Positions 45,792 to 54,519 of a stretch of 64,000 nucleotides of DNA are shown here, piece after piece. The DNA lies in NCBI RefSeq assembly GCF_014651375.1, contig NZ_BMWT01000002.1:315477-379476 (forward strand), in the 5' to 3' direction. A program made the position numbers and the translations under genes. The notes below the pieces were generated by a model, which saw nothing but the letters and a program-made list of their open reading frames with translations, had not been told where the DNA came from and ran no database searches. Within the stretch, counting starts at the first letter, position 1. The number at the start of each line of letters is the position of its first letter. The DNA is from Tateyamaria omphalii. Its GTDB lineage: Bacteria; Pseudomonadota; Alphaproteobacteria; Rhodobacterales; Rhodobacteraceae.

Positions 45792-47018
45792 ATGTCCCTT
45801 GCCAATACCGCCGACCGCTACGGCAGCCTGTCCAAGACTTTTCACTGGCTGACCGCCCTTCTGATCCTGACGCTGTTTCCCTTGGGACTGATCGCGAACA
45901 ACATGGCGTATGAGTTGCAAGCGCTATCCACGCCGGCGGATGATCTTGTCGCCCGCACAGCCTGGCTGTTTTCACTGCACAAGACATTAGGCGTCACGGT
46001 TTTCTTCGTGGCGCTGCTGCGCATTCTGTGGGCACTGAGCCAGCCGAAGCCGGGCTTGCTGCACCCTGATCGCAAACTGGAGAGCCTTGCCGCAGAAACT
46101 GTACACTGGCTTCTCTACGGCAGCCTTGTCGTTGTGCCCCTGTCCGGGTGGATACACCACGCCGCCGCCAGCGGCTTTGCTCCGATCTGGTGGCCTTTTG
46201 GCCAAAACCTCCCGCTGGTCCCCAAATCCGAAGCAGTTGCCGCGGCCATGGGCGGGGCGCACTGGGTGCTGACAAAGGTGCTGGGCGTTGCTTTGCTCCT
46301 GCATATCGCGGGCGCCCTCAAACACCACGTCATCGACAAGGATGCCACCCTGCGCCGCATGTGGTTCGGGCGCACCGACGTTCCCCAAACCGAACCTGAC
46401 CACAAACATGCAGCCCCAATCACGGCAGCGATTGCCTTGTGGGCGCTTGCGCTGTCGGGTGGCGCGGCCTTGGGCGTCTATGCCCCGCACGGGGACGGGA
46501 CGGCAATCGCCGAACTGGAAGAGGTTCAATCCGACTGGCAGGTTCAGGACGGCACATTGGCCATCACGGTGACCCAGCTTGGATCCGAAGTGGATGGGCA
46601 ATTTGCAGATTGGACCGCCGCGATCAGCTTTGACGAAACCGTTGAAAACGGCACAGCCGGCACGGTTGAGGTCATGGTGGCGATTGGCTCACTCACCCTT
46701 GGCTCAGTCACCGATCAGGCGATGGGACCGGACTTCTTCAACGCTGCCGACTTCCCGACAGCAACGTTCTCGGCAGACATTATTCCGGTGGTCGATGGGT
46801 ACGAAGCCCAAGGCACACTCACAATCAAAGGCCAATCTGTCCCGATCACCCTGCCTTTTGGCTTGTCGGTCGATGGCGACACCGCCTCGATGACCGGTGG
46901 CCTGACATTAGACCGCCGCAGCTTCGGGATCGGAGACACCATGGCTGACGAAAGCTCACTCGCCTTTTCCGTCTCTGTGGACGTCAACCTGACCGCCCAG
47001 CGCGCCGCAGCGGAATAA
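45792..47018 (+). CDS. Cytochrome b561 - YceI fusion protein, 408 aa
   Basis: Residues 1-180 are a four-helix cytochrome b561-type membrane domain with heme-ligand histidines in KTFHWLTA, SLHKTLG, TVHWLLYG and LLHIAGALKHH. A further helix (about 208-224) leads to a C-terminal YceI-like domain (about 235-408; VQDGTLAITVTQLGSEVDGQF, FFNAADFPTATFSADI, LTLDRRSFGIGD). YceI domains are lipocalin-like isoprenoid-binding folds, so the fusion may connect a quinone or polyisoprenoid carrier to a redox heme. GGAG 7 nt before the ATG supports this start. A stand-alone YceI is encoded at 53816-54385. Confidence 0.9.
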   Translation: MSLANTADRYGSLSKTFHWLTALLILTLFPLGLIANNMAYELQALSTPADDLVARTAWLFSLHKTLGVTVFFVALLRILWALSQPKPGLLHPDRKLESLAAETVHWLLYGSLVVVPLSGWIHHAAASGFAPIWWPFGQNLPLVPKSEAVAAAMGGAHWVLTKVLGVALLLHIAGALKHHVIDKDATLRRMWFGRTDVPQTEPDHKHAAPITAAIALWALALSGGAALGVYAPHGDGTAIAELEEVQSDWQVQDGTLAITVTQLGSEVDGQFADWTAAISFDETVENGTAGTVEVMVAIGSLTLGSVTDQAMGPDFFNAADFPTATFSADIIPVVDGYEAQGTLTIKGQSVPITLPFGLSVDGDTASMTGGLTLDRRSFGIGDTMADESSLAFSVSVDVNLTAQRAAAE

Positions 47019-47055
47019 AAAACGAAGTCAAAACCCCTTCCCTGTTTCAAAAAAA

Positions 47056-48400
47056 TACCATGCTGGACGGCGGCGCGGCTGACTGCTGCGATGCCGGAAC
47101 ATTCCAATCATAGGAGTTTCCAGCATGGTAAAGAAAGCAACACGCATTTCGCGGTTTGTGGCGGCAATTGAAGACTGGCCTGTCGTCGTGGGCCTTGATG
47201 TTCACACGAAGACCTATTCGATTGCGCTCTTTTCAAAAGACGGCGGTTTGGTGGAGAGTTACACCTGTCCGGCAGGCGAGGCTGCACTGGCACATCAGTT
47301 GGCAGAACGCGGCATCAACACTGACCATGTCGTCTATGAGTCGGGGCCAACCGGCTTTTCGCTTTCGCGGGTTTTGACGGACGAGGGTTTCAACATGTCA
47401 GTCATTGCAGCCTCTCGCACTCCACGTGGATATGCAGGGAGCGCGAAAGAATGACCGGCTGGATGCGGTGAAACTGGCGACGTACGATGCGCGAGGGCTG
47501 TTGCGCCCCATTGCGATCACGACTGTCGAACAAGAGGGCTACCGAGCGTTGGTGCGTCGCCGCAAACGGATCGCGGAGAGCCGGGGCAAGATCAAACAGA
47601 AGATCAAGGGTTTCTTGCTGGCGTCTGGCATTGATGAACCACACAGCATCCAAAAGTGGTCATTCGCAGCATCCGCCGACCTCATGGCGCTGAATGTGCC
47701 GCCTCAGCACCACATAGCTCTTGCCTCAATGGTGCGCGAGTATCTGTTTTTGCTATCAGAAGACAAAATGCTGCGTGCGGAGATCCGAACGGCAACCAAG
47801 CGCATGCACGCTCAATCCTTCGAACGGCTGACGTCCATCGTCGGGTTGGGAGAGACAGCCGCATCCAACTTTCTGGCCGAACTGTTCTCGCCAGAGAGAT
47901 GCAACAGGCCGGAAGTAAGTGACTTCGCATCTCGGATTGGCCCCAGTGGTCAGTCAGAGCGGCGGCAGTGCAGCCCGCGTCAGGATCAGGCCGGTGGGCC
48001 AGAAACGCCTTCGCGGTATTCTCATCGAAGCTGCATGGCAATGGACTTCGCGCGCCTCGGAGGCCAAGGACCTCTACAATCGACATTTTGCGAAGCATGG
48101 GATCGGGCAGAAAGCCATTATAGCTGTTGCCCGCAAGCTCGCAATCAAGTTTTGGCAGCTCGCGGTGGACACACAGCCTGCGCCCATGGGGGATGCTGCG
48201 CGCGGGGCCCGGTCGGCATAACCGACAGTAAAAAAGGGCAGCATCCCCATCAACCAGCGCGTACCGAAAGAGGTGCTTAGTGACCTCACATGATCCTGTC
48301 AGGCACGAATAAGAAAAGGCTTGCGCAGCTCGGTGAACGGTGGTGGTTCGGCCTCCGAACTCGGTGCCTTTGACAGGCACCGTGAGTTCTGCTGCGGCCA
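47056..48400 (+). mobile_element. Degenerate IS110-family element
   Basis: The element consists of a frameshifted DEDD transposase gene, a 12-bp inverted repeat (TACCATGCTGGA at 47056-47067 and its complement at 47119-47130, the latter overlapping the start codon) and a structured 3' non-coding region to about 48400. The exact ends are not certain, since IS110-type elements do not make clean terminal repeats or target duplications. It marks the left border of the accessory island. Confidence 0.65.
47125..48221 (+). pseudogene. IS110-family transposase, broken by two frameshifts
   Basis: Three consecutive frames together give one transposase. The first segment (to about 47440) has GLDVHTKTYSIAL and VVYESGPTGFSL, the second (to about 47920) has KNDRLDAVKLATYDARGLLRP, i.e. 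the DEDD catalytic residues of the RuvC-like domain, and the helix-hairpin region LTSIVGLGE. The third has TSHLGLAPVVSQSGGSAARVR and RGILIEAAWQWT, the C-terminal Tnp domain with the family's serine. Each junction needs the loss of one base to restore the frame. No slippery sequence with expected -1 logic was seen, so I treat it as inactivated. Confidence 0.85.
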
Positions 48401-48480
48401 ATGCCCAATGTCTCAGGTGCGGACCAGTGCTGCCATTCAAAGCGACAAACTGAACGGCCGCTTTTGAACCTTCAGAGAAT
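48222..48480 (+). ncRNA. Candidate IS110/IS1111-type bridge RNA region
   Basis: The non-coding stretch 3' of the transposase contains tight hairpins: GTTCGG-CCT-CCGAAC (48346-48360), and a longer one with arms GAACTCGGTGCC (48357-48368) and GGCACCGTGAGTTC (48376-48389) around TTTGACA, with a 2-nt bulge. IS110-family elements carry a guide (bridge) RNA in their non-coding end, 3' of the gene in IS1111-like members. The structure here fits the idea but is not proof, and the transposase is dead. Confidence 0.35.
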
Positions 48481-48495
48481 TAAAGCCTTTCCAGC

Positions 48496-48523
48496 TTGAC
48501 GATATGTGCGGACCGCACATAAT
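48496..48523 (+). promoter_or_regulatory. Promoter of the GNAT gene with MarR-type operator
   Basis: A -35 TTGACG (48496-48501) and -10 CATAAT (48518-48523) are spaced by 16 bp, and the palindrome GTGCG-GAC-CGCAC (48506-48518, extended TATG...CATA) fills the space. The same arrangement occurs at the VOC and marR promoters, so it is likely bound by the MarR-family protein encoded at 52998. Confidence 0.7.
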
Positions 48524-48545
48524 GGCGTTGAAAGGCGAAAGCACC

Positions 48546-49109
48546 ATGATTGACTATGAAACCAAGCCGCTCGATGCGCGCACCTGGGACGATTTTGCGG
48601 GCCTTGTTGAGGAGAACAATGGCGTCTGGAGCGGGTGCTGGTGCATGTGGTATCATGGGAAAGAAGTTGCGGACGCCTCGGTGGAACAAAAGCGCGCGAT
48701 GAAAGAGGCGCGCGTCAAAGCCGGCGAAGCACACGCCGCCCTTGTTTTTCACGACGGCAAGTGTGTCGGATGGTGCCAGTTCGGCTCAACTTCTGAGTTG
48801 CCACGCATTCACAACGCGCGGGCCTACCAAAAGGATAACCACAAGCTACCGGACTGGCGTATCACGTGCTTCTTCTCCGGCAAAGGACATCGAGGGGGTG
48901 GCGTCGCCTCAGCAGCTCTCACAGGGGCAGTCGAACAGATCAAGGCCCTCGGCGGAGGGCGGGTTGAGGGCTATCCAGAAGACATCGAAGGCCGCAAGGC
49001 GGCGCCTGCGTTTCTGTTCAACGGTGCGCTGCACATGTTTGATAGGTTGGGTTTTGAGCGATCTCGCAAAATCGGAAAGCACAAATGGGTCGTCACGCTT
49101 GATCTCTAG
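48546..49109 (+). CDS. GNAT family N-acetyltransferase, 187 aa
   Basis: A GNAT acetyltransferase with the WCMWYHGKE segment in the N-terminal part and the acetyl-CoA loop FFSGKGHRGGGVASAALTGAVEQI. The substrate is unknown. I set the start at ATG 48546, which lies 23 nt after the -10 box; upstream ATGs at 48504 and 48522 fall inside the operator and the -10. It is convergent with the broken ogt gene. The operator shared with marR suggests it belongs to the same stress or resistance regulon. Confidence 0.85.
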   Translation: MIDYETKPLDARTWDDFAGLVEENNGVWSGCWCMWYHGKEVADASVEQKRAMKEARVKAGEAHAALVFHDGKCVGWCQFGSTSELPRIHNARAYQKDNHKLPDWRITCFFSGKGHRGGGVASAALTGAVEQIKALGGGRVEGYPEDIEGRKAAPAFLFNGALHMFDRLGFERSRKIGKHKWVVTLDL

Positions 49110-49122
49110 TTCTCGGTTACAG

Positions 49123-49505
49123 CTATGACCGCGTTTTCACGGACAGAGGCAAGTGGGCGAACAGACCCGGCCCGCCAACCGTCGCGCCTTCGATTGCCAG
49201 CATCTTCAGTTTGAGTTCCACCCCGCCAGGTGCCGAAAATCCGGTGAGACGTCCGCCCGCACCCAAGACACGGTGGCACGGAACAATGATGGGACGAGGA
49301 TTTGGCCCAGGGCTTGCCCGACCTCTCTCGCCTGATGTTTTTCACCAACCTCGATCGCGATCGCGCCGTAGGTCGACGTCTCGCCAGGAGCCAGCGCTGG
49401 TGTCGCAGTACAGACCAGTGCTGCAAATGGACCTATGTCTTCAAAATCACAAGCGATGAACGAAAGGTTCGTCCGATCCCCCTCGAGAAGAGCAGTTATC
49501 GCCAT
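49123..49505 (-). pseudogene. ogt: Methylated-DNA-protein cysteine methyltransferase, frameshifted
   Basis: The 5' frame encodes the MGMT segment [19 protein letters not shown] then AREVGQALG; the 3' frame encodes [20 protein letters not shown] and [20 protein letters not shown], including the PCHRV active site with its alkyl-acceptor cysteine. The two are joined only if one base is added near 49304-49309 (GGCCC instead of an expected GGGCCC). The N-terminal domain is short compared with Ada/Ogt proteins. If the base is really missing, no PCHRV protein can be made. It is the last gene of the VOC-led run. A sequencing error in the homopolymer is a real alternative. Confidence 0.82.
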
Positions 49506-49616
49506 GATCGCCCCTTGAATAGTCTCAGGTGGCGAACCCTCTTTCGCGCCACGCTATGCCGCAACGTCCAATGGGTGTCGGGAACAGTGCGAACTCAGCG
49601 ATGCTTGCATTGCCGG

Positions 49617-50770
49617 TCATCCGCTCACGTCTTTAGGCGGCTCAGGCAGTCGCCAGAAGGCCAACGTCGCCACTGCAATGGTCACGCTTACGAACAGCAG
49701 AGCGGCCCGCGCGGCCTCGATACCGTAATCCGCAGCCAGCGTAACTGCGGTTCCGCTGCGCCACTGCATCGCGGCGACACCGCCGAACATTGCCATCGTG
49801 AACACGCTCAATGCCCGGCCCGTCATCTCCGCCGTGTATGAGGAACGCACGTCCGCGTATTGCATGGTAACACATCCACCGGACAACCCGGTGAAGACTG
49901 CAAGCGCCGTATCGAACCCCGCGTTCCATCCAGGGGCAAGCCCCGCAAACTGCACCGCACAGGTAGCGCTGAACCAAATGATAATCTTGCGGCGTCCGCT
50001 TGGTCCCGGGTCGATGCGCCCGAATAGATATGGACCGATAATGACGGCAATAGAGATGACCAGCGCGATGTGACCGACTTCGATGAGCGAAAAGCCATAG
50101 CGCTCCGTCAAAAACGGACCGATCCAGAGGCCACGCAAGGTCATGAAGGCCGCATGAGTGACAGCACCAAGACAGCAGATGCCAAGCGTATGCGGTTGCG
50201 CAATAACCGACCCCAGGCCGCGCGGTTCGGTTCTGATGGACTGGTTTTGCGTCCCATGCTTGTGCGGCTCTTTTTCCAGGAACCAGAACACTGCGATCCA
50301 GCTGAGTGCCGCCAGGACCATACCTCGATGACCCAAGCCAGGAGCGTGCCCGTCATCAGCATGCCGACGCCACCCGTTGCGAGGATGATTCCCGACAAGG
50401 ATGCGAACCTCTCCGACCGGTAGCGGCGGGCCACCAGCAACATTGCGACCAGAAGCGCGGGCGCGCAGCCTAATCCGAGCAGACACTGCCCGAGGATCAG
50501 AACGTCCACCCGTTGCGCCAGGGCTGAAACGGCGCCACCGATCAGCGCCACGACGAAGGCGACGAGAACGGTGCTCCTGGGTCCGTACCGATCGAGCGAT
50601 ATGCCAACGGCCGGTTGGGCCAGCGCGAAGGCCAGATGAAAAGACCCGGCGATTGCACCAAGCGCTTGGGCTGAAGCATTGAACTCGTCCGCCAAAGGTT
50701 CGGCTGCAATACCGGTGACAGTGCGGAAAGCGTGGCTGAGGACAAAGACGAAGACCAGAGCTGCCAGCAT
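49617..50770 (-). pseudogene. MFS exporter, frameshifted in the middle
   Basis: The 5' frame (50770 to about 50310) encodes the N-terminal half with FRTVTGIAAEPLADEFNAS, motif A-like LDRYGPRSTVLVAFVVAL and TGGVGMLMTGTLLAWVIEVWSWR. The 3' frame resumes with LSWIAVFWFLEKEPHKHG and runs through the C-terminal six helices to 49617. Adding one base near 50309-50312 joins them into an about 384-residue 12-helix transporter. Its place in the VOC-led run suggests an export step; the substrate is unknown. As it stands it is probably non-functional. Confidence 0.82.
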
Positions 50771-50863
50771 CAGGGGGACGCTCTTTTCCGGATGCTGAGT
50801 TGCTGGTTCAGACGGCAGGTGGGGGGCTCTACCTGTGTCGTGTGGCTTCCTCTTCTGAAAGCC

Positions 50864-51679
50864 TCACCGCATCAAACCGTTAAGCTCTGGATAAGGCATT
50901 CCGCCCTCAACCCAACCGAATGTGCCATCGTTATGAAGCTCTTGCGCCGCAGCTTGCAGTCGGCCCGCAATGGCACTGTAGAATTGCGAACCAACGCTGA
51001 TACGGCGGACCCCGCGCGCCGCGAAATCGGACACCGTTCCTTCGTTTCCGACACCCGCCAAAACATTGATCGGCGTTTGGACGTGGCCAACAACTTTATC
51101 GACATCCGCAAGTGTCATGAGCGCGGGTGCAAACAGCAGGTCGGCCCCCGCTTCTTCGTATAGGGTCAGACGGGCGAGGATCTCATCAAGGTCGCAGGCT
51201 CCCGCAAAAAGACCATCCGCGCGTGCGCAGAGAACGAAAGGGCGATCCAAAACGCGTGCTGCTTCGACGGCGGCAATGATCCGTTCTTTCGCCAGTTCCC
51301 GGTCAAAAAGAGGCGCTGCGGGATCGCCAGTTGTATCTTCGATGGACCCGCCTGCAAGACCTACATCTGCAGCAAGGCGGATCGTTTCCGCGACAGTTTC
51401 GGGGGAAGCGCCAAACCCATTCAGCAAATCGCCAGAGACAGGGACGTCGACCGCGTCCACGATCGCCTTGGCGTTTGCCAAAGCGAGGTCGCGCGACGTT
51501 GCGCCATACTTTTGCCCGATCGCCCATGCAAACCCTGCACTGGTGGTGCCGAGACCCGAGAAGCCTGTGGCTTCAAGCATTCTCGCAGAGCCCGCATCCC
51601 ACGCATTCGCCATCACGAAACATCCGCTTGCATGCAGCTCCCGAAAACGCTCAGCCTTTTGCTCTGTAGTCAAGGTCAA
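50864..51679 (-). CDS. Isocitrate lyase / PEP mutase superfamily protein, 271 aa
   Basis: The enzyme belongs to the TIM-barrel superfamily that cleaves or forms C-C and C-P bonds next to carboxylates (2-methylisocitrate lyase, oxaloacetate decarboxylase, PEP mutase). Visible are FVMANAWDAGSARMLEATGF at the N-terminus, the acid cluster DGLFAGACDLDEIL and the Mg-binding GGSIEDTTGD. The KKCGH catalytic motif of isocitrate lyase is not present, so a lyase of small 2-oxo or malate-like acids is likely. It is the third gene of the VOC-led run. Confidence 0.88.
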   Translation of the reverse strand: MTLTTEQKAERFRELHASGCFVMANAWDAGSARMLEATGFSGLGTTSAGFAWAIGQKYGATSRDLALANAKAIVDAVDVPVSGDLLNGFGASPETVAETIRLAADVGLAGGSIEDTTGDPAAPLFDRELAKERIIAAVEAARVLDRPFVLCARADGLFAGACDLDEILARLTLYEEAGADLLFAPALMTLADVDKVVGHVQTPINVLAGVGNEGTVSDFAARGVRRISVGSQFYSAIAGRLQAAAQELHNDGTFGWVEGGMPYPELNGLMR

Positions 51680-51725
51680 GTCTTTCTCCTTCTGTTACTC
51701 ATTGCATCACTACGCGTGGCGCGAT

Positions 51726-52337
51726 TCACAGAACCGCATAAAACCGATGAATCGGCCCGCCGTTGCCGGTGCGCGATTTGCTGACTGCCACAATATTGTT
51801 CAACCAGGCGTAGCGCGGATCGCCGGTCTCAAATCGCGGTGCGGCTCGGAAGTAGTAGCGCCATGCGCCATCTGGATCGTCAGCCTTGGCGACATCCGCC
51901 GCATATTCGGCATCTTCGGGGCGCGACCAGAAACGCCCAAGCCATTGGACGTAAATCAATGCGTTGTCATGGGTTTCCCATGTGAAGCGCACATCAAGCA
52001 CGCCAACACCATCCGGGCGAACGTGCACCCAATCCGCTGCAGCGTCATTTGTCACCCGCCCCCGAATATGCGGGCCATCAATGGTCCCCCCGGTCACATT
52101 GAAGATCAGGCCTTGTCCATTTGGCCCTGCGCCCGTGGTCGTTGGCGGCGTTTGAACCTGAACTCTGGCCTCTGTCAGAAACAGCAGCTCGGGCGGAGCT
52201 TCGGCATCCCATCCGTCTGGGCTGAGCACAACCCCACCGCCGTTAGGGTTCATGCCGTGTGCCTGGCTTTCGCCAGCCAGCGCGGTCGCCCCCAGTGCGC
52301 CAGCTCCTATGAGCAAGTTTCTTCGAGTTTGGTCCAT
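51726..52337 (-). CDS. Exported DUF3237 protein, 203 aa
   Basis: The N-terminus MDQTRRNLLIGAGALGATALAG has a twin-arginine (TRRNLL) export signal, so the protein should be sent folded to the periplasm. The rest is DUF3237, with the signature VTGGTIDGPHIRGRV and the later LDVRFTWETHDNALIYVQWLGRFW. DUF3237 is a beta-barrel of unknown function often found beside small-molecule enzymes. It lies 21 bp after the VOC gene and 46 bp before the PEP mutase-like gene, so they are co-transcribed. Confidence 0.87.
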   Translation of the reverse strand: MDQTRRNLLIGAGALGATALAGESQAHGMNPNGGGVVLSPDGWDAEAPPELLFLTEARVQVQTPPTTTGAGPNGQGLIFNVTGGTIDGPHIRGRVTNDAAADWVHVRPDGVGVLDVRFTWETHDNALIYVQWLGRFWSRPEDAEYAADVAKADDPDGAWRYYFRAAPRFETGDPRYAWLNNIVAVSKSRTGNGGPIHRFYAVL

Positions 52338-52358
52338 CGGATACCGTCCTTGTTCGTG

Positions 52359-52892
52359 TTACGAGTTTGAGGCTTGATAGAGTTCGATCAGCTCTCTGCT
52401 TGGCCCTTGCAGAAAGGCTATGCGCATCGGTTCCGGTCGCGTGCCGGACATGATCACATCCAGCGGCGTGCCGTCCCATTCTTCGTTGGGCACAGGAATT
52501 TCGAACCGCACTCTACCAGCTGAGAGCGCCTGCGCGTAGGCGGCATCCACGTCCGCAACCGAGAGGGCGAGATGGTTCATCGGAAAACCGGGCGGAGACA
52601 TCTCGCTATCACCCGCAGGGCGCAATTCGATGTATCGGCTTTCACCTGCTTCAAGGAACACACTCGCCACCGTGAACGGGAATCTGCGCGTGCCGCGCAC
52701 ACCGACGATGTCATCGAACTCTTCTCGGAGGGTGAGCCCAAGGCCTTCGGTGTAAAAGCGGGCTGATGCCTCCATGTCGGACACAAAGAGACTGACGTGA
52801 TGCAGAACGGGGCCGGTCATCGGGCCGAACACCCGATCCTCCAGCTTAGTCACCCCTGTTTCCCCTTCGATCTCTTGCCCTTCTGCGGACAT
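52359..52892 (-). CDS. VOC-fold (glyoxalase/bleomycin-resistance type) protein, 177 aa
   Basis: The domain VLHHVSLFVSDMEASARFYTEGLGL is the opening of vicinal oxygen chelate proteins, and the second half MNHLALSVADVDAAYAQALSAG with a metal-binding Glu region follows. VOC enzymes include glyoxalases, fosfomycin-modifying enzymes and bleomycin-binding proteins; the sequence does not choose among them. The ATG at 52892 has GAGG 8 nt upstream. It is the first gene of the minus-strand run under the MarR operator at 52939-52951. Confidence 0.88.
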   Translation of the reverse strand: MSAEGQEIEGETGVTKLEDRVFGPMTGPVLHHVSLFVSDMEASARFYTEGLGLTLREEFDDIVGVRGTRRFPFTVASVFLEAGESRYIELRPAGDSEMSPPGFPMNHLALSVADVDAAYAQALSAGRVRFEIPVPNEEWDGTPLDVIMSGTRPEPMRIAFLQGPSRELIELYQASNS

Positions 52893-52933
52893 CACGCAAA
52901 CCTCGCATTGCCGTTCGATCTTGCGCGATCAAA

Positions 52934-52961
52934 AATACGTGCGCTCCGCACATATCGTCAA
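52934..52961 (-). promoter_or_regulatory. VOC-operon promoter with MarR-type operator
   Basis: On the minus strand -35 TTGACG (52961-52956) and -10 CGTATT (52939-52934) are 16 bp apart, and the palindrome GTGCG-CTC-CGCAC occupies 52939-52951. Read from the VOC side, the stretch CTTGACGATATGTGCGGA is the same as at the GNAT promoter. Confidence 0.7.
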
Positions 52962-52989
52962 GTTGAAAATCGTGCGGTGCGCACATAAT
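52962..52989 (+). promoter_or_regulatory. marR promoter with MarR-type operator
   Basis: The palindrome GTGCG-GTG-CGCAC (52972-52984) lies between GTTGAA (52962-52967) and CATAAT (52984-52989). Its centre is 33 bp from that of the VOC operator, so the two dimers would sit on about the same face of the DNA. Autoregulation is expected. Confidence 0.68.
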
Positions 52990-52997
52990 GTGGTGCC

Positions 52998-53504
52998 ATG
53001 ACAAACAGAACAGCTAATCTTCTTGGGGTCGTTGGCCTTGCCGTGGCGGATCGGATCGAGCATGTCGCGCGCGAAATCCTAGGCCGCGTCGGCGAAACAC
53101 CTGCCGCACTGGTCGTCATCGGGCACGGCACCGGGCTATCCAACGATGCGCTTCGCCGCATCCTTGGCCGATCGCACCCGGGAACTGTGAGGCTCGTCGA
53201 TCGGCTTGTTGCTGATGGCCTTGTTGAGCGCACCGAAGGCCAAGACCGACGTGCCGTTGCGCTGCGGCTCACGGACCAGGGTCATGCCGTTCGCGACGAA
53301 CTCCTTGACGGACGCCTGTCTGCTGTGGACGCTCTTCTGGAAACTCTCTCATCAAGGGAACGCGATTTATTGGATGCACTCTTAACGAAGATCCTGACCT
53401 CTTTGGACGCGACGATCGACGAACGGCGAACACTCTGCCGGCTCTGCGACGTTCAGGTCTGCGAAAACTGTCCAATACCGGCCAGTGAGGGTAGAGTGGC
53501 ATGA
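52998..53504 (+). CDS. MarR-family transcriptional regulator with C-terminal Cys cluster, 168 aa
   Basis: A winged-helix regulator with a long N-terminal dimerisation helix, the recognition region GLSNDALRRILGRSHPGTVR and wing (EGQDRRAVALRLT). At the C-terminus is C147-x2-C150-x4-C155-x2-C158 (CRLCDVQVCENC), which could bind zinc or an iron-sulfur cluster or act as a redox switch. MarR proteins usually repress until a ligand or oxidant releases them. Three near-identical palindromes in the window (two at its own divergent promoter, one upstream of the GNAT gene) are its likely targets. Confidence 0.9.
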   Translation: MTNRTANLLGVVGLAVADRIEHVAREILGRVGETPAALVVIGHGTGLSNDALRRILGRSHPGTVRLVDRLVADGLVERTEGQDRRAVALRLTDQGHAVRDELLDGRLSAVDALLETLSSRERDLLDALLTKILTSLDATIDERRTLCRLCDVQVCENCPIPASEGRVA

Positions 53505-53815
53505 CACAGCAAAGGTCGAAACAAGACCGCCCGTAACCTGTCCTCAAAAGTCGCCATTCGTCGATTACGCAGCATTGGACAAACTGGGCTCTCAGCCAAC
53601 ATTGAGAGATTGGCTTTGCAATAGCGGCATTCAGTGGTTGGGCTTGACACTAGTCCACATAAGAAAATCCCCGCCGGAGGCAAATCACGGGAGGGCCTGA
53701 AAAGGCCCTCCTGAATTAAATCGTGTCGCGTGTATGCGCGGCCTTTCGACAGCAGCCACGAAAAAAGCCGCGCGATTGTCTCGCGCGGCTTTCAAAGGTT
53801 TCGTGAGTGATGGTC
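53505..53815. other. Spacer between marR and yceI
   Basis: There is no gene in this 311-bp stretch. It contains a hairpin GGAGGGCCT-GAAA-AGGCCCTCC (53690-53711), probably ending marR transcription although no T run follows, a TTGACA box at 53644-53649 with no good -10, and the yceI terminator. Confidence 0.6.
53759..53792 (-). terminator. Terminator of yceI
   Basis: The 12-bp stem AAAGCCGCGCGA (53764-53775) / TCGCGCGGCTTT (53781-53792) closes a 5-nt loop and ends in TTTTTT on the minus strand, about 24 bp after the yceI stop. Confidence 0.85.
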
Positions 53816-54385
53816 TTATTCAGCCTTCTGGGCTTCCACTGAAATCTGCACTTGTACTTCGTCGCTGACGGCCGGTGCAAAAGCACCCAGGTTAAAGTCC
53901 GACCGCAGCAAGGTGGTTGTCGCGTTGAAACCGGCCCAGTCTTTCTGGTTCAGGGGATTGGCGCCCGCTTGGTTCAGCGTCGCCTCCAGCACAACAGACT
54001 TGGTGACGTCATTCATTGTCAGATCGCCAGTAATCTGCGCGGTGCCATCGCCGGTGACTTCAATGCCGGTGGATGTGAAGGAAATGACGTCTTCATCCGT
54101 GGCCCCGAAGAAATCGTCGGACATGAAGTGGCCGTCGCGCTGTTCCCAGCCTGTGAACATCGATTTGGTCGGCATCGACACGGTTACACTGGAGTTTGCC
54201 GGGTCTGCCTGGTCGAACATGATCTCGCCTTCAAAGCCCGAGAACATGCCCCATGTGGTCGAGAAGCCGAGGTGGTTGTAGGAAAACAGGATTTGGCTGT
54301 GGCTCGAATCCAAAGTGTAGCGATCGGCTGCAAACGCGAATGATGCAGTTGAGGCCAGCGCTGTGGCAAGAAGAAGGGATTTCAT
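53816..54385 (-). CDS. yceI: YceI family periplasmic protein, 189 aa
   Basis: YceI proteins are lipocalin-like and bind polyisoprenoids. The signal peptide MKSLLLATALASTASFAFA is followed by DRYTLDSSHSQILFSYNHLGFSTTWG, GEIMFDQADPANSSVTV, and the conserved LTMNDVTKSVVLEATLNQAG. I set the start at the ATG at 54385; the frame is open 60 codons more without family sequence. It is independent of the b561-YceI fusion at 45792, so the cell has both forms. Confidence 0.93.
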   Translation of the reverse strand: MKSLLLATALASTASFAFAADRYTLDSSHSQILFSYNHLGFSTTWGMFSGFEGEIMFDQADPANSSVTVSMPTKSMFTGWEQRDGHFMSDDFFGATDEDVISFTSTGIEVTGDGTAQITGDLTMNDVTKSVVLEATLNQAGANPLNQKDWAGFNATTTLLRSDFNLGAFAPAVSDEVQVQISVEAQKAE

Positions 54386-54519
54386 GGGGCGTGCTCCACA
54401 AGTGTTTATGTATGCTGACAAGATGTCGCATATTGCTGCAGAGGCAACTGCACATCCGTCAACATATCGTGCGCATGGCTGAACATCGCTCATGCGCACG
54501 AAGAGCATCCGAAAGGATT

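Follow-up and report, generated by a model that had tools for sequence, protein, structure and literature searches.

The stretch of DNA analysed here (the window) comprises 64,000 nucleotides of contig NZ_BMWT01000002.1 of Tateyamaria omphalii (Rhodobacteraceae), and it contains an inserted island in which the gene for a MarR-family regulator diverges from a minus-strand run of five genes (VOC, DUF3237, PEP-mutase-like, MFS and ogt), with a GNAT acetyltransferase gene 4.4 kb away. This cassette occurs in several marine bacteria. A palindrome, GTGCG-N3-CGCAC, lies before marR, before the VOC gene and before the GNAT gene. Judged from the placement of these sites, the restriction of their extended form to the cassette, their conservation and their co-variation with the regulator, the cassette MarR is very probably an autoregulating repressor acting on three operators.

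Three palindromes in promoter spacers

The first-pass annotation had placed the palindrome at 48506, 52939 and 52972, and all three copies are exact at these coordinates; the window contains three exact copies of GTGCGNNNCGCAC (48506-48518, 52939-52951 and 52972-52984) and none besides. Each copy also fills the spacer between promoter-like -35 and -10 boxes (read by eye; Table 1), as had been claimed, with the -35 box of marR open to an alternative reading (TTGAAA with 15 bp). The marR and VOC promoters are divergent, their -35 boxes touching (CGTCAA followed directly by GTTGAAA), and the 33-bp distance reported between their two sites is correct and is kept at four related loci (L035, L036, L037 and L038; loci and genomes are cited by L and G numbers). 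As sequence, the locus thus shows the arrangement by which MarR-family regulation is recognised, namely a palindromic operator in the regulator's own promoter together with a divergent target gene. The stretch said to be common to the GNAT and VOC promoters is real and longer than first described; in inverted orientation, 34 nt of the two promoters match at 88%, which makes it likely that one arose by copying the other, apparently the GNAT promoter from that of VOC.

In this copy of the cassette the MFS and ogt genes are each split between two frames, so that the distal half of the operon is probably dead here. Elsewhere ogt is a single open frame (L038, L035 and L127) and the MFS gene of L038 is one frame of 410 amino acids, relative to which that of L035 has an internal gap. 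These broken frames were overlooked when a regulon of marR, the entire VOC-DUF3237-PEP-mutase-like-MFS-ogt run and GNAT was proposed; the sequence tests favour that regulon in other respects, and its working members in this copy are probably marR, VOC, DUF3237, the PEP-mutase-like gene and GNAT. The GNAT protein is 84-89% identical in L035, L036 and L038, and a fold search with its structure model returned generic GNAT matches alone (template modelling (TM) score ~0.5), without a substrate hint. The nearest solved chain to the PEP-mutase-like protein is 4lsb (2.2e-62). The N-terminus of the DUF3237 protein is twin-arginine-like (RRNLLIGAGALGATALAG, read by eye), and the aligned stretch of L131 is without such a signal.

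Table 1. Features of the inserted island, in window coordinates
Feature	Position	Strand	Details
Inserted island, 6.6 kb	47055..53663		Broken IS110-type transposase gene and cassette
GNAT promoter	48496..48523	+	TTGACG 48496-48501, 16-bp spacer, CATAAT 48518-48523; operator 48506-48518 in spacer
GNAT acetyltransferase gene, 186 aa	48549..49109	+	Pfam Acetyltransf_1 1.6e-4
ogt (O6-methylguanine-DNA methyltransferase), split over two frames	49132..49553	-	Profile match; extra N-terminal fragment to 49680 contains stops
MFS transporter gene, frame broken near 50300	49620..50809	-	Profile match
PEP mutase / isocitrate lyase superfamily protein, 271 aa	50864..51679	-	Pfam PEP_mutase 3.9e-64
DUF3237 protein, 203 aa	51726..52337	-	Pfam DUF3237 2.4e-33; recurrent neighbour of this kind of MarR
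VOC protein (glyoxalase/dioxygenase superfamily), first gene of minus-strand run	52359..52895	-	Pfam Glyoxalase 1.7e-14
VOC-operon promoter	52934..52961	-	TTGACG 52961-52956, 16-bp spacer, CGTATT 52939-52934; operator 52939-52951 in spacer
marR promoter	52962..52989	+	GTTGAA 52962-52967, 16 bp, CATAAT 52984-52989; operator 52972-52984 in spacer
MarR-family regulator, 168 aa, C-terminal CRLCDVQVCENCP	52998..53504	+	Pfam MarR_2 7.3e-8; alignments, tree

The extended site and the cassette in other genomes

The bare 13-mer was rejected as evidence, as the 4.75-Mb genome contains it 14 times and a reversed control 15 times, and the window, with one mismatch allowed, contains it seven times against 6.9 expected. 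The form common to all three sites, GTGCGNNNCGCACATA, occurs exactly at three places in the genome, all in the cassette, against a chance expectation of ~0.2 (from base-composition arithmetic assuming ~60% GC). The remaining 11 GTGCGN3CGCAC sites of the genome are all without ATA, and 10 of them fall within open frames of at least 90 codons, which is a crude test in GC-rich DNA. The genome search for the longer palindrome that had been suggested thus gave no match at unrelated genes of this genome, and the whole-genome scan with the exact extended site gave no further MarR targets outside the cassette. Across ten genomes with this MarR, exact extended sites occupy 23 distinct places (three each in G000, which is this genome, and in G217, G219, G220 and G554; two each in G320, G560 and G342; one each in G218 and G221), and 22 of these lie upstream of marR, the divergent operon or GNAT. 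The extra site in G342, within a radical-SAM gene, was discarded as a target and taken as chance. At the marR and GNAT sites the N3 letters differ between genomes while the arms are unchanged, and none of 32 GNAT homologues outside cassettes (24 from a sample of the class and eight from a sample of the family) has the operator within ~250 bp at one mismatch.

That the bare 13-mer is no commoner than its control pattern would suit palindromes that are chance occurrences or hairpin-forming repeats without a protein partner. This explanation has a negligible probability, since it has to contend with three promoter spacers, with the restricted exact extended form and with conservation across families, and Rfam returned nothing above the gathering score in 47000-54500. 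A separate observation concerns a repeated hairpin-like element, GGCGCACCTG..GGTGCGCCCCGCACGTCA, which has the bare 13-mer inside it and lies at two places in the genome, near position 1501 of L001 and L004.

The island is flanked by sequences that are contiguous in G208 (L177), and both flanks lie close together at 17 of the 18 genus-mate loci compared, L193 having the left flank only. At its left end the IS110-type transposase gene (47125-48280) is split over two frames. A close homologue of this MarR is found neither in 19 other genomes of the genus nor in 197 other genomes of the family, in which the best match reaches 40% identity across residues 25-138. A scan of genome contigs yielded six loci with a MarR 76-90% identical over the matched segments, and the search that had been proposed for the same gene set with the palindrome revealed the three-site arrangement in G217, G220, G219 and G554, the operator preceding GNAT at L035, L038, L067 and L127. 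At L035 and at L038, the latter from Ruegeria sp. R13_0, the gene order is complete, and three exact sites and the 33-bp spacing are present as well. At L037 the twin site is present, the PEP-mutase-like gene is absent and the contig ends within the MFS gene; a palindrome scan of the same genome (G219) yielded a single further place, L067, which lies on a different contig and immediately precedes the GNAT gene at its end, and the two contigs likely join. Other copies are reduced. L036 is decayed, with VOC, PEP-mutase-like and MFS genes lost and ogt broken, and the copy in a Shimia metagenome-assembled genome (L039/L040) looks as if it is decaying, in that only one of the two operators is present, VOC contains a stop and the PEP-mutase-like gene is broken. 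The marR gene of the Shimia genome is divided between contigs (L039 8238-8291 and L040 1-96), with unrelated sequence after codon 79. In another family, L127 (G554) carries a smaller set, marR beside DUF3237-ogt with a convergent GNAT gene, in which both the twin site and the GNAT site are present and MarR, DUF3237 and GNAT are 65-73% identical to those of the window. L101 and L102 have the twin site at close MarR relatives, and no other cassette gene was found nearby; a search of plasmids with the cassette DNA returned a single record, matching 4% of the cassette.

A tail-bearing MarR subfamily and its predicted operators

The window MarR scores 32.9 bits with MarR_2 (cut-off 27) and 22 with the older MarR model (cut-off 24.6). 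It has cysteines at 147, 150, 155 and 158 and no others, and these four tail cysteines (CxxC..C..CP) are invariant in 11 aligned homologues. Plasmid relatives (183 records with a MarR match, of which 20 were listed and 10 examined) share the C-terminal Cys4 tail and are 35-43% identical to the window protein. TATGC-N5-GCATA or a near form lies upstream of six of the eight plasmid relatives scanned, L062 and L099 being excluded from this count because their marR start is disrupted or broken up. The rule TRTGC-N5-GCAYA, derived from the window and the plasmid relatives, was then tried on a class sample of 385 genomes, 22 of which have a MarR match at 1e-15, by scanning 200 bp upstream with at most one mismatch (from the estimated gene start for tail-less homologues). 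In this sample the pattern is found upstream of 11 of the 18 tail-bearing homologues (nine exact; the count of 11 includes the G554 cassette itself, as L103) and of none of the six tail-less ones, and it is likewise missing from all 29 other MarR loci that the family search yielded, where gene starts were estimated. The window MarR fits the Cys4 subfamily as defined here, in that the tail is present and both upstream sites are one mismatch from the general pattern.

The type of operator follows the phylogeny of the regulator. Nine MarRs with the operator type of the window (TGTGC) group in a single clade (97/97), outside which falls a tenth, L123, whose sites carry one mismatch, and the neighbouring group (joined 84/78) consists of four TATGC-type proteins, all with a DUF3237 gene adjacent or one VOC gene away. 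The motif SN[DH] at residues 48-50 is present in all nine TGTGC proteins of the clade and in none of the ten TATGC proteins aligned, and one residue within it is a candidate specificity determinant. Nothing else in the analysis links the palindrome to this protein as strongly as this co-variation of operator type with the MarR tree. Alternatively, a host regulator other than MarR might bind the palindrome, marR being merely a neighbour; this is very unlikely, as such a regulator would have to account for the agreement with the tree, for exact extended sites that are all cassette-bound in six genomes, and for sites that remain with the MarR in other families, where its neighbours differ. The lack of a close MarR homologue in the 19 genus mates and of the site at the GNAT homologues elsewhere argues in the same direction.

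The closest relatives of the DUF3237 protein (E<1e-100) occur in six of the 385 genomes, in every case either directly beside a tail-bearing MarR or one gene removed from it, and the genomes of the three weaker matches (1e-62 to 1e-53) lack a MarR match of this kind. In the class sample a DUF3237 gene adjoins five of the 18 tail-bearing MarRs; plasmids hold only distant relatives of the protein, none with 80% coverage. Since the close kind of DUF3237 is always near a tail-bearing MarR, it looks like an old partner of this regulator, to which the other cassette genes would be additions.

Proposed regulation and related systems

In the proposed mechanism a MarR dimer would bind each operator copy (here GTGCG-N3-CGCACATA, and TRTGC-N5-GCAYA in the wider subfamily). 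Because each operator fills a -35/-10 spacer, bound MarR should deny RNA polymerase access to three promoters, those of marR, the divergent VOC-DUF3237-PEP-mutase-like-(MFS-ogt) operon and the distant GNAT gene; repression by occlusion is taken from general MarR biology. An inducer reacting with the conserved four-cysteine tail (e.g., an electrophile, oxidant or alkylating agent) would free the three promoters together. The invariant tail and the neighbouring ogt, DUF417 and MsrA genes suggest such a reactive chemical, and whether the inducer acts through the tail at all is a matter on which we are about evenly divided. Ada reacts directly with alkylating agents. By comparison with Ada, the tail might be a metal-bound (zinc or iron-sulfur) sensor that reacts directly with alkylating or electrophilic agents, making the cassette a mobile detoxification and repair unit, although we regard this version as rather unlikely.

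A further alternative competes with the inducer part of the proposal alone: repression would proceed as described, but the tail would have a structural role only, as a zinc knuckle, and release would be triggered by a small ligand that the VOC, DUF3237 and lyase-like enzymes process, for instance an aromatic acid. This is a tentative but real possibility, as VOC and PEP-mutase/isocitrate-lyase enzymes with a transporter suit catabolism. In one study, the DUF3237 protein PinX is predicted to decarboxylate a lignan intermediate, from its similarity to the decarboxylases PhcG and PhcF, and DUF3237 decarboxylases in pathways of lignin compounds suggest an aromatic ligand instead of a reactive one (PMC12607616). 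Against a small ligand stand the invariance of the four cysteines in the aligned homologues, and the ogt gene of several cassettes and the DUF417, MsrA and OsmC genes near the plasmid relatives, which suit chemical stress better.

Several observations weigh against regulation as proposed. No operator is recognisable for seven of the 18 tail-bearing MarRs (L105 and L110-L115) or for two of the eight plasmid relatives (L063 and L098), the pattern had been defined visually on the window and plasmid relatives ahead of the trial, and the 18 homologues are not independent, L111-L114 being close kin. With one mismatch allowed, the excess of the extended pattern over its control is small or absent in G218, G220 and G221, and the N3 of the VOC site is invariant among five close relatives, so that the conservation of this site says less. 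The structure model of the MarR (predicted local distance difference test (pLDDT) 47, from a five-row alignment) was of too low a quality to be used. Additionally, L036 retains both GNAT and marR, but has no operator left before GNAT and a one-mismatch site before marR, which indicates that control of GNAT is not indispensable. Together with the likeness of the GNAT and VOC promoters, the loss in L036 would agree with a MarR whose control is confined to its own gene and the divergent operon, and with a GNAT site that is a relic of promoter duplication without a regulatory role. This is nevertheless quite unlikely, given that the GNAT site is exact in G000, G217, G219, G220 and G554 with its N3 changed and its arms not, and that it has been kept in G554 despite the divergence of the MarR, DUF3237 and GNAT proteins.

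Among known systems, the available text on SydR, a MarR-type regulator of Sinorhizobium meliloti, describes a divergent gene pair with two identical inverted repeats, one per promoter as in the marR/VOC layout, and separate repression of each half (PMC11633110). The two differ in the operator (TATCGCGATA for SydR, TGTGCG-N3-CGCACA-like sites in the cassette) and in the redox cysteine, SydR having C16 in helix 1, which is absent from the window MarR with its C-terminal Cys4 tail; a third distant site, corresponding to that at GNAT, is not found for SydR in the text available (PMC11633110). EmrR/MprA, SlyA and MarR proper share the winged-helix MarR domain and are among the best NCBIfam and PDB matches; the Cys tail lies outside the matched stretches, and the window protein scores 46.7 bits with the EmrR/MprA equivalog model (NF008122) against a cut-off of 157. 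Closer in kind are the plasmid MarRs beside DUF417 (Methylorubrum, Sinorhizobium, Rhizobium, Sphingomonas and Klebsiella), which have the same tail and a related operator but different neighbours (DUF417, MsrA, OsmC and others). L060, L061, L062, L064, L065 and L097 lie near DUF417 (RclC-like), some also near MsrA, OsmC or YeeE/YedE, and L063 adjoins a haloalkane dehalogenase gene. These plasmid loci are possibly reactive-chlorine or electrophile regulons. RcrR is TetR-like and RclR is AraC-like, which sets both apart from a MarR that bears a Cys4 tail. The hypochlorite regulons of these two Escherichia coli regulators are linked to the DUF417 membrane proteins RcrB and RclC, a link apparently paralleled in the plasmid MarR relatives (PMC9600549).

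Searches of the open-licence literature brought up no gene set like that of the cassette, in agreement with the first-pass annotation, and no MarR with this tail, no paper on the plasmid MarRs beside DUF417, and none on a MarR together with Ada or alkylation. The regulatory logic would be that of an ordinary local MarR repressor, and it is the tail-bearing subfamily, the operator code and the cassette that were not met in that literature. The analysis offers a candidate regulator-operator pair for a MarR subfamily of plasmids and islands in Alphaproteobacteria, with the same tail also on a few gammaproteobacterial plasmids and one Rhodococcus plasmid examined, and with an operator code that shifts with the protein tree (TGTGC versus TATGC). 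It also links one regulator to a branch of DUF3237, a family about which little is known, and points to a cassette that may have enlarged its regulon by copying an operator-bearing promoter.

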